From an uncultured Fibrobacter sp. (GTDB lineage Bacteria; Fibrobacterota; Fibrobacteria; Fibrobacterales; Fibrobacteraceae): a DNA stretch of 64,000 nt. Numbering within the stretch: position 1 is the stretch's first letter; each line of letters begins with the position of its first letter. The position numbers and the translations under genes were made by a program. This document shows, in pieces, positions 2,001-9,404 of this stretch. The notes beneath the pieces were generated by a model. It had not been told where the DNA came from, did not search any database, and saw nothing but the letters and a program-made list of their open reading frames with translations. Location of the stretch: assembly GCA_946413655.1 (NCBI GenBank), contig CAMKLO010000003.1, positions 1-64,000 on the forward strand, given 5' to 3'.

Positions 2001-4385
2001 CTAGTCCTTGACGCAACGGACTGAGTACCCGTAGTTCTTGTAGCCGGAGTCATTCAGGTACGCATTTCTGTTGACGTAATGCAGGTATATATCGTACGCG
2101 TTTTCGTCATTATACTCTGTAGAACTCCAGAAAAATGCTTGGTAGCCCTTTGTGTCAAAATACCAATTCCCCTCGCAGTCCCTTTGGCCAGCAGGCAATG
2201 CCGAGAAGGAATAGGTATCCGTGCCTTTACTTATCCAGATGCTGGTGGACCTGAGGTTCTTGCCTGATCCCTCGCCAACTGCAGCAAATAACGTTTCCCA
2301 TTCCGTCGATTCCGGCAAATGCCAGCCCTGAGGGCAAATGCCACGCACCGGATAGGTCGGCGAGCAAGTCTTACCAGCGCCGCAACCCTTGCCATTTGCA
2401 CTCCATTCGCCCACGCTGTCCATCGCGGCAGCCCAAGTGTAATGGCGACCGTATTTGGCACAGTTGGCGGCATCATCGCCATAGCACCAGCTAGTGGAAT
2501 CGGAGGGGTACTCCCATTTGCCCCAATTATATTTAAAGGGAACGCCTGTGTATGCGTAGTTCAAGTTCTCCGCCATCCAAGTCTGCGTGCCGATGGTCAC
2601 AGTCTTGTAAGTTTTGCCGTCACGTTTGTCAGTCATAGTTCCCTTAACTACAGCCGATGGATCTACATACGCAACAGATGATGAAGAAGATTTCACCGAG
2701 CTGCTGCTGGATACACTCGTCTCGCTATCGCCTGACTTCGGCGTGACGCTAGAACGGACCTCGTCCTTTACGCAACGGACAGGCATACCCTCGTCCTTGA
2801 CATTGTGATAGACAAAGAACATATAGTCGCTGTCGTAATCCAATCTTATGTAGTTCACGTCGCTCCCTCGCTCAGTAGAACTCCAGAAAACCGCAACGTA
2901 GCCCTTTTGGGAAAAATTCACTATAGACGCTCCACTCCAGAAGCCAGCGGGCAATGCCGAGAAAGAGTAGTCGTCCGTTCCGTTCCAAGTGCCTGTTCTG
3001 TTCCACTTGGGGACAGCCTTGAGCTTCTTGCCCGCCCCCGCCGGATCGGAACCGGAAACCGCAATTTCAAGCGTTTCCCAATCCATCGTATCTGGCACAT
3101 GCCAGCCCTCGGGACAAATACCGCGCACTGGATATGTTGCCGAGCAAGTTGTCTTATAGCCGCACCCCTTGCCGTTCTCAGACCATGTGCCCACGCTGTC
3201 CATAGCGGCAGACCAAGTGTAAAGGCGACCGTATTTGGCACAGTAGGCTGGGTCATCGCGATAGCACCAGCTAGTGGAATCAGAGATGATGCCATGAGCT
3301 TTATAGGGTACACCAGTATATGCGTAGTTGAGATTCTCCGCCATCCAAGTCTGCGTACCGATTTTAACAGTCTTGTAGGTTTTGCCATCGCGTTCATCTG
3401 TCATAGTTCCCTTAACTACAGTCGACGGCTTCACATAGGCCACGGAAACACTGCTGCTAGACAACCTTGTCTCGCTATCGCTACTGCTCCGGATGACGTT
3501 CTTCGACGTGACGCTGGAAGACGACATTTGTTCAGAAACTTCGTCTTTGACGCAACGAACAGAAAAACCGGATTGTTTGAGGTCGTAGTTCAGATTCGCA
3601 TTGTTGTTACTGTGCAAGTCCATATACCATGCGTAGTCTCTATTGCGCTCTGTAGAACTCCAGAAGAACGCGTTGTCGCCCTCAAACTCGAAATTTCCAC
3701 CGTATTCCCTGAAGCCCGCGGGCAACGCCGAGAAGCCATAGACGTCCGTTTCGTTTCCGCCACCGTTCCAGGCACTATTCCAGTTATTAGTAGTGGACTT
3801 GAGTTTCCCGCCAGCCGTATTTGCCTTATTATACTCCCTAATAGAGCCGTCAACGGCCACAATCAGAGTCGCCCATTCATCATAATTAGGCAGGTGCCAG
3901 CCTTCAGGGCATATACCACGCACCGGATAGGTCGGTGAACATGTCTTGAGTAGCCCGCAATTCTTGCCGTTTGCAGTCCATCTTCCCATGCTGTCCATCG
4001 CGGCGGCCCACGTGTAAAGACGACCGTATTTGGCGCAGTAGACAGAGTCGTTGCCATAGCACCAGCTCGTAGGATTGAAGATGTGCACCCTATTTTTATG
4101 GAGAATGTCTCCGTAAGCATAGTTCAGATTTTCCGCCATCCAGGTTTGGGTGCCGATAGTGACCGTCTTATAGGTCCGACCATCACGTTCATCCGTCATA
4201 GTTCCCTTAACGACAGTAGATGGATCTACATAGGCCACGGGAACACTGTTGCTGGACACACTTATCTCGCTATCGCTCGACTGCGGAATGACGCTGGAAG
4301 GACTAGTTTCAGAATTGCGGTTGCCGACACAAGCCACCAGCACTGCCGCCATAATCCCCACCATCAACATTTTTTTCAAAGCCAT
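2001..4385 (-). CDS. Triple FISUMP-domain lipoprotein
   Basis: Lipoprotein of about 794 aa with a signal (MALKKMLMVG...VLVAC, acceptor Cys19) nearly identical to the gene at 35-1282. Three FISUMP domains follow in tandem (roughly residues 50-285, 315-545 and 575-794). Each starts near VKGTMTDERDG and ends SVRCVKD or PVRCVKD, and short Ser-rich linkers separate them. The start at 4385 has GGAGAGG 4 nt upstream; the longer start adds ten residues before the signal. The three copies share GRLYTW/GRHYTW, PVRGICP and FSALPAG, so it grew by internal duplication. Surface location is inferred and function is unknown. Confidence 0.9.
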   Translation of the reverse strand: MALKKMLMVGIMAAVLVACVGNRNSETSPSSVIPQSSDSEISVSSNSVPVAYVDPSTVVKGTMTDERDGRTYKTVTIGTQTWMAENLNYAYGDILHKNRVHIFNPTSWCYGNDSVYCAKYGRLYTWAAAMDSMGRWTANGKNCGLLKTCSPTYPVRGICPEGWHLPNYDEWATLIVAVDGSIREYNKANTAGGKLKSTTNNWNSAWNGGGNETDVYGFSALPAGFREYGGNFEFEGDNAFFWSSTERNRDYAWYMDLHSNNNANLNYDLKQSGFSVRCVKDEVSEQMSSSSVTSKNVIRSSSDSETRLSSSSVSVAYVKPSTVVKGTMTDERDGKTYKTVKIGTQTWMAENLNYAYTGVPYKAHGIISDSTSWCYRDDPAYCAKYGRLYTWSAAMDSVGTWSENGKGCGYKTTCSATYPVRGICPEGWHVPDTMDWETLEIAVSGSDPAGAGKKLKAVPKWNRTGTWNGTDDYSFSALPAGFWSGASIVNFSQKGYVAVFWSSTERGSDVNYIRLDYDSDYMFFVYHNVKDEGMPVRCVKDEVRSSVTPKSGDSETSVSSSSSVKSSSSSVAYVDPSAVVKGTMTDKRDGKTYKTVTIGTQTWMAENLNYAYTGVPFKYNWGKWEYPSDSTSWCYGDDAANCAKYGRHYTWAAAMDSVGEWSANGKGCGAGKTCSPTYPVRGICPQGWHLPESTEWETLFAAVGEGSGKNLRSTSIWISKGTDTYSFSALPAGQRDCEGNWYFDTKGYQAFFWSSTEYNDENAYDIYLHYVNRNAYLNDSGYKNYGYSVRCVKD

Positions 4386-4433
4386 AAAACCTCTCCAAGA
4401 GAAATATACATTCAAAACATGTAGGCTTTGGCT

Positions 4434-7474: not shown

Positions 7475-8485
7475 CTAGGGCTTTTTCACCTCCACACTAG
7501 GGAGATACTTTTCCCAAATTCCACCGATAGCAATTTGATAAGTTCCTTCAGGCAGGCCAAACAATACCACAAACCCATTCTTATAGTCTTCTTCGGTTAC
7601 CTTTTGACAAGGGTAATAATGCGAAGGAATTCCTCCTTCTTTTTCATCATAATCCATCGTAGAGGACAAAGCATGTTCATCTTGCAGCCACAAACAAATG
7701 CCATCCCCATCACCTCCAATATTTTCCTTTATTGATTTATTCCAGCGCTCATCGTATGGAATTTCACTTTCTGGAGTCGTTTCATCAACTGTCGCAAAAA
7801 GGGAATCCAAATACACTTTAGCGGTATATACAGGCTCTAAGACGATTTGTTTTAATTCGGCGTACAGTTTTCCATCAATTCCGACAACATGGGCGCTAGC
7901 AAAGCTTAAAAAGACATTGGCACCATAGTTCGAATCTGCAGAAAGCGCCCGCAATTGGATAGACTGAAATTCGGGGACATAACTATACTTTGGATTACTT
8001 TTGTTTAAGTTCTCCAAATAAGTAAGGAAGTTTACGCTATCCAAATAAATATAGCCTTCCTTGTCAGTAACATGCTGACAACTTTTATCATCAAAGGAAC
8101 AATCTTTTTCATAAACAGTCGCTCCCACTACCGGTTTTCCATCTACATCAACCACTTGAGCTCTCGCATTTATATACAGATAAATATCCTTATGGGAACC
8201 ACACGTACTTCGAGCAAAAAGAAAGATATCGCTCGTATCAGCAGCACTATCCTCTTCGGCAGCACTCTTGGCCAGCGAACCACAGCCCAACTCACCTTCG
8301 TTGACATACTTGCGAACTAACGATGTATCCAATTCGGCAAGAAGTCCCAGCTGTTCAACAGGCTTCCCCGTATTCGTTTCGCTAAACGAAGACGCCACAT
8401 TATCATCACTGCTGCAAGCTGCAAATAATCCCAAGCTGGGTACAGCCAACACAGCACAAATTTTTAATATTTTATTCAAAATCAT
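7475..8485 (-). CDS. Lipoprotein with carboxypeptidase-regulatory-like domain
   Basis: A 336-aa secreted lipoprotein: MILNKILKICAVL...LFAAC gives the acceptor Cys. About residues 105-155 (ARAQVVDVDGKPVVGATVYE ... TDKEGYIYLDS) look like a CarboxypepD_reg/Ig-like fold. The rest is unrecognised. ATG 8485 has AGGAGG 7 nt upstream; ATG 8491 almost touches it. It lies 17 nt after the TIGR02147 regulator gene and is almost certainly co-transcribed, an arrangement known for this regulator family in Fibrobacter. Its function is unknown; a cell-envelope role controlled by the partner is an inference. Confidence 0.8.
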   Translation of the reverse strand: MILNKILKICAVLAVPSLGLFAACSSDDNVASSFSETNTGKPVEQLGLLAELDTSLVRKYVNEGELGCGSLAKSAAEEDSAADTSDIFLFARSTCGSHKDIYLYINARAQVVDVDGKPVVGATVYEKDCSFDDKSCQHVTDKEGYIYLDSVNFLTYLENLNKSNPKYSYVPEFQSIQLRALSADSNYGANVFLSFASAHVVGIDGKLYAELKQIVLEPVYTAKVYLDSLFATVDETTPESEIPYDERWNKSIKENIGGDGDGICLWLQDEHALSSTMDYDEKEGGIPSHYYPCQKVTEEDYKNGFVVLFGLPEGTYQIAIGGIWEKYLPSVEVKKP

Positions 8486-8502
8486 AACCATTCCTCCTCG
8501 GA

Positions 8503-9330
8503 TTATTTTTTCAAGTTTGTAAACAAGTGAATATTCAACTGATGGACTCCAGTTGCCTCTTTCTTGTCTTGCGTAATAATTTTACGCACCTTGGCTTTCA
8601 AGTTCTGAATTTCCAAGGCTATCTCTTTATAGGCGTCGTCTGAAACGCTGAACGTGAACGTACCCATGTCCGAAGGGTTATCGTCATTCGCAAGCAATGC
8701 CTGCTTCGAAAGTTCAAAACACTGCAACTGGTACTGACGAACAAGATCGTTATTGCTGTAGGCTCCGCTACTCACTGACTCGCGGCAGCTTTTCCAGAAG
8801 CCGTCTTCGTTCTTGCGCACAAAGCCAATGCGTGCAAGCAATTCCAAGGAACGCTTCAACGTTCCCACGGAGACCTTCGGGAAAATCCGTTTTTGAATCG
8901 GCTCAAGGTCATCCGAGACATCCATCACATCCAGCGCCGTAAACAACACGCTATTATACCAGTGATTGTAATACTCGTACGCATCTTCGTCCAAGATGTT
9001 ATGCGGATCCGGATGTTGCTTGATGAGTTCGTCAAAAAAAGCATTGCGTTCCGTCGTCGTTTTCGCCTGGTCAAAGTTCACCATCGTCTCAAAGTACTTG
9101 GCCTCTTTCTTGTTGAGTCCAAGGACTTCCACGAACTTGGGAATCATGCGCCCGGAGAGCTTTTTTCCTTTGACGATATCGTTGAAGTAACTGCGGGTCT
9201 TGGGGAGTCCGAGCAACGCACACACTCCAGCCCTAGTAAATTCAGGGTCCGTCTGCACGCGTGCCGCCTGATACTCATCCAAGTACTTGCGGAAGTGTGT
9301 GAACTGAAATATGTCGATTGTTTTTTCCAT
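8503..9330 (-). CDS. TIGR02147/DUF4423-family regulator
   Basis: A 275-aa protein of the TIGR02147 family, first described as a Fibrobacter paralogous family. The N-terminus IFQFTHFRKYLDEYQAAR leads into an HTH-like segment (RAGVCALLGLPKTRSYFNDI ... KGKKLSGRMIPKFVEVLGL), followed by a helical DUF4423-type domain with KEAKYFETMVNFDQAKT and ALDVMDVSDDLEPIQKRI. It is the first gene of a two-gene operon with the lipoprotein 17 nt downstream. Four symmetric half-sites sit just upstream, suggesting autoregulation. The ribosome site before ATG 9330 is poor (AGGAC too close). Confidence 0.87.
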   Translation of the reverse strand: MEKTIDIFQFTHFRKYLDEYQAARVQTDPEFTRAGVCALLGLPKTRSYFNDIVKGKKLSGRMIPKFVEVLGLNKKEAKYFETMVNFDQAKTTTERNAFFDELIKQHPDPHNILDEDAYEYYNHWYNSVLFTALDVMDVSDDLEPIQKRIFPKVSVGTLKRSLELLARIGFVRKNEDGFWKSCRESVSSGAYSNNDLVRQYQLQCFELSKQALLANDDNPSDMGTFTFSVSDDAYKEIALEIQNLKAKVRKIITQDKKEATGVHQLNIHLFTNLKK

Positions 9331-9341
9331 GTCCTAAATGT

Positions 9342-9400
9342 ACTCAAATTTTGACTCAAAGTCAAGAGGTAAACACAAAATTTTGAGATTTTTTTTGAGT
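9342..9400 (-). promoter_or_regulatory. Symmetric four-half-site operator
   Basis: ACTCAAA occurs at 9342-9348 and 9354-9360. Its reverse complement occurs as TTTGAGA at 9382-9388 and TTTGAGT at 9394-9400. The members of each pair start 12 bp apart and all four share one dyad centre at 9371. A further palindrome TTGACTCAAAGTCAA spans 9351-9365. The array ends 11 nt from the regulator start codon, so a dimer-of-dimers repressor site is likely. Confidence 0.6.
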
Positions 9401-9404
9401 ACCA

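Follow-up and report, generated by a model that had tools for sequence, protein, structure and literature searches.

The window analysed here, a stretch of 64,000 nucleotides, carries on its minus strand a gene for a 275-residue regulator (8503-9330) and, 11 nt downstream of it, a gene for a 338-residue lipoprotein (7475-8491) with an AGGAGG before its ATG; we infer that the two genes share one operon. A tRNA dihydrouridine synthase-like gene lies upstream, likewise on the minus strand; DusB is its best model, with a score below the DusB cut-off. The original prediction had placed the regulator in the TIGR02147 family, which is borne out by a match of 348.8 bits to TIGR02147 (Fsuc_second) over residues 5-274 (curated cut-off 50), together with one of 80.4 bits to Pfam DUF4423 (PF14394) over residues 110-270 (gathering cut-off 30). 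It had also stated that these proteins are not known to have an assigned DNA site, and none was found for TIGR02147 or DUF4423 in the searched literature, whose coverage mostly leaves out subscription journals. In the excerpted Bdellovibrio proteome table of PMC12546842, DUF4423 is named in one row.

In front of the regulator, ACTCAAA occurs exactly at 9342-9348 and 9354-9360 on the plus strand and TTTGAGT at 9394-9400, and the fourth box, TTTGAGA at 9382-9388, has a single mismatch (TCTCAAA on the other strand); three of the four ACTCAAA half-sites originally described are therefore exact and the fourth is not. The two direct and two reverse copies, the 12-bp spacing of both pairs and their common centre at 9371 were confirmed from the sequence. 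These boxes form two tandem half-site pairs (GTACTCAA...CTCAA, 12 bp apart) that face each other: a predicted proximal operator unit, GTACTCAAATTTTGACTCAAA (9340-9360, plus strand), and a predicted distal, inverted unit, GTACTCAAAAAAAATCTCAAA as read on the minus strand (9382-9402). The 7-mer ACTCAAA by itself shows no enrichment across the window (12 observed, 12.6 expected). A search for the arrangement with any word and up to one mismatch gave no case in 400 dinucleotide shuffles of the region (122 nt) and a single one in 1065 tiles of the window, the tile being the present site.

Both the consensus scan and conservation point to a sigma-70-type promoter at 9337-9365 on the minus strand, made up of TTGACT (9365-9360), a 17-nt spacer and TACATT (9342-9337), the latter stopping 6 nt before the regulator ATG. 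Among the 35 orthologous loci described below, TACATT is present at -12 in all and TTGA[CT] at -35 in 34. The proximal boxes take up the -35/-10 spacer and reach into the initial bases of the -10, an overlap that is identical in 35/35 loci, and the distal boxes stop 16 nt upstream of the -35; the site is thus located, as is to be expected of an autoregulatory operator, on the regulator's own promoter. The -10 hexamer ends 6-7 nt before the start codon (9331-9342 in the window) in most TIGR02147 genes of the window's clade and in about half of those of the large MKPITEY clade of paralogues, and this short distance in many family genes suggests leaderless transcripts.

The search for orthologues in 80 Fibrobacter genomes yielded 35 loci at at least 84% identity, distributed in 34 genomes, and all 35 upstream regions were read (39 rows, four of them being the same locus retrieved twice). 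Absence of the motif before orthologous operons, named in the original prediction as the observation that would speak against it, did not occur: GTACTCA...TGAGTAC is retained in 35/35 loci and the mismatched box stays TCTCAAA in 34/35, while flanks and between-pair spacer diverge and the site is kept also where the upstream flank differs greatly. Thirty loci have an outer span of 63 bp, two of 64 bp, two of 52 bp and one of 41 bp, so that the distance of the distal pair shifts only by +1, -11 or -22 bp; these spacer changes are few (three), and L045/L049 and L056/L064 may each represent one event. The locus with the 41-bp span (L065) has a single good distal half-site left. Because the spacer varies and L065 retains one good distal box only, a reading of the four boxes as two tandem-pair units fits better than one as a single rigid dyad; of the dyad symmetry first proposed, the shared centre stands, but the arms are longer than had been noted (GTACTCAAA, 9340-9348, vs TTTGAGTAC, 9394-9402). 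Such complementary arms, and the overlap of promoter elements with the proximal pair, could also be expected of an RNA hairpin, of a terminator belonging to the dus gene upstream or of a mere by-product of promoter conservation. We regard these readings as extremely improbable, since the distal pair lies outside any promoter element and is yet kept in 34/35 loci, the boxes precede the inferred transcription start and persist next to a very different upstream flank, and a terminator scan finds none at the site. One genome (G072; contigs C21 and C56, loci L064 and L043) has two orthologue copies of 87% and 95% identity, each with an operator, its assembly having a listed contamination of 8%.

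Exact matches to GTACTCAAWWWWNNMCTCAA number 35 across the 80 genomes, every one of them before the orthologue; the pattern is present in 34/34 genomes with the orthologue vs 0/46 genomes without it, and the exact matches therefore show the co-occurrence expected of an autoregulatory operator. Allowing one mismatch retrieved the distal unit in 34/35 loci and 12 other matches (three with the reversed-pattern control), and of the seven of these 12 that were examined six are inside open frames and one, judged by eye, is at a frame end. A wider regulon was also sought and rejected in the own genome, which at up to two mismatches gives the two units and four chance-level matches, the reversed control giving four as well. 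The neighbourhood alone cannot prove self-binding, and the boxes might in principle serve another, wider regulator of which the TIGR02147 gene is merely a target. This is very unlikely, given that exact matches are missing wherever the orthologue is missing, that a second promoter with the pattern was found neither in the genome nor in the genus (7/12 one-mismatch matches examined) and that the word varies with the paralogue and its recognition helix, as detailed below.

The explanation that we favour, with a probability of about 0.85, is that the four boxes are a private operator of the downstream TIGR02147 regulator, used for self-control, probably repression, together with the lipoprotein operon. 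Since the site lies across the regulator's own promoter, it is very probable that the protein switches both its own gene and that of the partner surface lipoprotein. The original proposal that the regulator controls itself and the linked lipoprotein is thereby supported, the site being on the own promoter in 35/35 loci with the lipoprotein gene just downstream of the regulator. Binding by the regulator, its cooperativity and its repressive effect are what we infer from this layout. The regulator would occupy both pairs, the proximal one in the -35/-10 spacer and the distal one some four helical turns upstream, and the molecules at the two pairs would probably touch across the short intervening stretch. 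Regulator bound in this way would exclude RNA polymerase, which would hold down the production of both the regulator and the co-transcribed lipoprotein. The signal for release from this control may concern the lipoprotein or a ligand of the lipoprotein.

An AlphaFold2 model of the regulator (mean pLDDT 79.5, pTM 0.48) places helices at residues 13-27, 33-39, 47-53, 60-70 and 74-87. The protein likely has an N-terminal helix-turn-helix with helix 47-53 as recognition helix, so assigned because of the positions of the helices in the model; this predicted helix (SYFNDIV) is encoded at 9172-9192 on the minus strand and contains residues 50-51, which are linked to the word. Structural neighbours of the model include the DNA-binding antitoxins GraA and HigA as well as PA4674, with Z of 6.8-7.6, and in the comparison with the Cro/CI-type (XRE-like) helix-turn-helix fold, a bundle of four or five helices with the motif at helices 2-3, the best VIA Z was 8.1 (3pxp_A), matches being middling at Z of about 8 or less. 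The C-terminal part has MecI/MarR/ArsR-like winged-helix matches at Z of 6-7.4 only. Foldseek with the model returned nothing at E of 0.001 or below, and the sequence search of solved structures found no relative of the regulator (best E 0.11).

The own genome contains 33 TIGR02147 matches above the cut-off (a short fragment included), and five other genomes have 28 to 39 each. The original suggestion that ACTCAAA pairs be sought before other TIGR02147 genes was followed with a divided outcome: the pairs are found at 35/35 orthologous loci, but the upstream regions of paralogues repeat other words, namely GTTCTCA, GTACTAC, GTATCAT and GTTTCAT, each conserved among its own orthologues. ACTCAAA as a family-wide motif was consequently rejected; in the upstream sequences compared, ACTCAAA is the word of the window's orthologue group, not of the TIGR02147 family, and the related regulators of one genome seem to go with distinct words. 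In a test without a prior word, in which the best repeated 7-mer per orthogroup was compared with 60 shuffles, ACTCAAA was the top 7-mer of the window's group (A; score 59 vs a shuffle maximum of 5), GTTCTCA that of group B (34 vs 10) and TGTACTA that of group C (17 vs 4). GTATTCC, GTTTCAT, GTGTCAT, GTATCAT, GTTCTA and GTATAAT types beat the shuffles in some orthogroups of the smaller groups; in many orthogroups the top 7-mer of this test was not above its own shuffle maximum. Word calling, with thresholds set by hand, covered 67 orthogroups and assigned a word in 37; L179 and L199, two loci whose frame was wrong or missing, were left out before clustering, and in other groups a few start codons are in doubt. 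No site was evident at two distant deltaproteobacterial loci (L350 and L352).

Groups B and C, the nearest paralogue groups, have the same type of site with other words (GTTCTCA and GTACTAC, respectively); relatives of both types occur in the cultured F. intestinalis ATCC 43854. The 12-bp tandem core is found in 35/35 loci of A, 31/52 of B and 12/12 of C, the exact 12-bp spacing being missing in 21/52 loci of group B, where a spacing of 13 occurs in 12/52. In group B the pair is often at the -35 position, which fits both activation and repression. Activation by the same protein on the same operator, with the distal pair recruiting polymerase, or a sign that switches with the signal, is the main rival to our interpretation, and one that we hold to be rather unlikely. 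The distal pair does lie at a turn-phased distance on the upstream side of the -35, and in group B the pair at the -35 position often goes without a good TTGACA, the best -35 match being at most 4/6 in 50/52 loci. In the window's group, however, the proximal pair extends over the spacer into the first -10 bases and the -35 matches at 5-6/6 positions in 32/35 loci. An operator that covers the promoter spacer and -10 next to a near-consensus -35 is a layout typical of repression. Activation is more likely in group B, where the pair often replaces the -35, than in the window's group, for which repression remains the preferred reading.

In the large MKPITEY clade, direct copies of the word are 69-75 bp apart in 53/70 members and in 21/24 tested orthogroups, the next intervals of equal width being 90-96 bp (14) and 20-26 bp (11) and the rest having at most 4. 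Recurrence of a word in the same upstream region is built in by the choice of the word but its spacing is not, and the 24 orthogroups of this test are those left after A, B, C and ten doubtful or out-of-clade groups were set aside. The distances of 69-75 bp are near whole DNA turns. In paralogues of this clade (e.g. L011, L014 and L026) half-sites are 70-73 bp apart with AT-rich sequence between them; the distal copy is often within a dyad of 12-bp offset, with an inverted copy 7-14 bp away in 35/70.

Across paralogues the words partly follow residues of the recognition helix. Most group A members have SYYND in the helix. Groups A and C, whose words have A as third base, carry N50 (35/35 and 12/12), and group B, whose word has T there, carries A50 (52/52); residues 50 and 54 are the only full separators of A and C vs B in the recognition-helix region. 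In an unbiased scan of 269 columns in 37 orthogroups, uncorrected for kinship, residue 51 was the best predictor of word position 4 (z 6.7), and residue 57 that of position 6 (z 5.2) and position 7 (z 8.7), both residues being in or just past the recognition helix; for positions 3 and 5 the top columns were off the helix (residues 72 and 127, respectively). A proline in the helix goes with A at position 3 in 10/11 orthogroups vs 2/11 without proline (Fisher p 0.002, likewise uncorrected for kinship), a word being called with confidence in 22 of the 45 orthogroups. Among 11 disjoint nearest pairs, those with the same helix also had the same word (3/3) and a change in proline came with a change at position 3 in 3/3, two further changes at position 3 occurring without a proline change. 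Orthogroups 45 and 47 constitute a counterexample, since both have SSAVFLKYV with the words GTATTCC vs GTTCTAA; orthogroup 47 is below the confidence threshold and so outside the proline and pair counts. A code that resides in the helix only is not established. Taken as sequence comparisons uncorrected for kinship, these data are good evidence that TIGR02147 proteins read these words, a finished code not being claimed.

The predicted operator resembles those of lambda Cro/CI, HigA and GraA, in which a helix-turn-helix protein acts on an operator over the -35/-10 of its own operon through paired sites with turn-phased spacing. Unlike these, the units in the window hold tandem 12-bp half-site repeats and the regulator, as modelled, would add a second, winged-helix-like C-terminal part; unlike the HigA and GraA antitoxin systems, its partner is a lipoprotein and not a toxin. 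As in LacI/GalR, specificity appears to follow recognition-helix residues, with an own site per paralogue, but here a single genome has some 30 paralogues, almost all of which adjoin a lipoprotein gene of their own.

The partner survey comprised 279 family loci (ten retrieved twice), 70 of which had too little downstream sequence. In the remaining 209, a lipoprotein-like frame lies directly downstream in 172 by a strict pattern, a frame missing the pattern in 34 and none in three; with a looser pattern the downstream frame is lipoprotein-like in 62/67 orthogroups. The partner lipoproteins, including that of the window, are otherwise unlike and have in common a stretch after the lipobox cysteine, e.g. 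CSxxxxTAGxTEExNxIA, 57/62 orthogroups matching a loose pattern that was drawn up after seeing them. This stretch was clear, by eye, in none of the six other lipoprotein-like frames that a simple scan gives in the window. The window also encodes a lipoprotein-like protein with three FISUMP (TIGR02145) domains (2001-4415, minus strand); TIGR02145 is treated in the excerpted part of PMC4704652.

Different conserved words belong to different paralogues; one genome thus contains about 30 cassettes of regulator and lipoprotein, many of which have a predicted operator to themselves. It is tempting to speculate further, although we consider this picture tentative and somewhat more doubtful than not, that Fibrobacter maintains some 28-39 insulated, self-regulating cassettes of a TIGR02147 protein and a surface lipoprotein with private operators, whose word is partly readable from the helix, and that turn-phased double operators could give switches by which the set of surface lipoproteins is chosen. 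The site described here is a first likely DNA site for a large regulator family of unknown function, private to the window's paralogue, and the related regulators with their matched words offer a natural series from which a code of DNA recognition might be derived. How a gut genus of fibre degraders controls a large set of its surface lipoproteins could thereby be tested directly.
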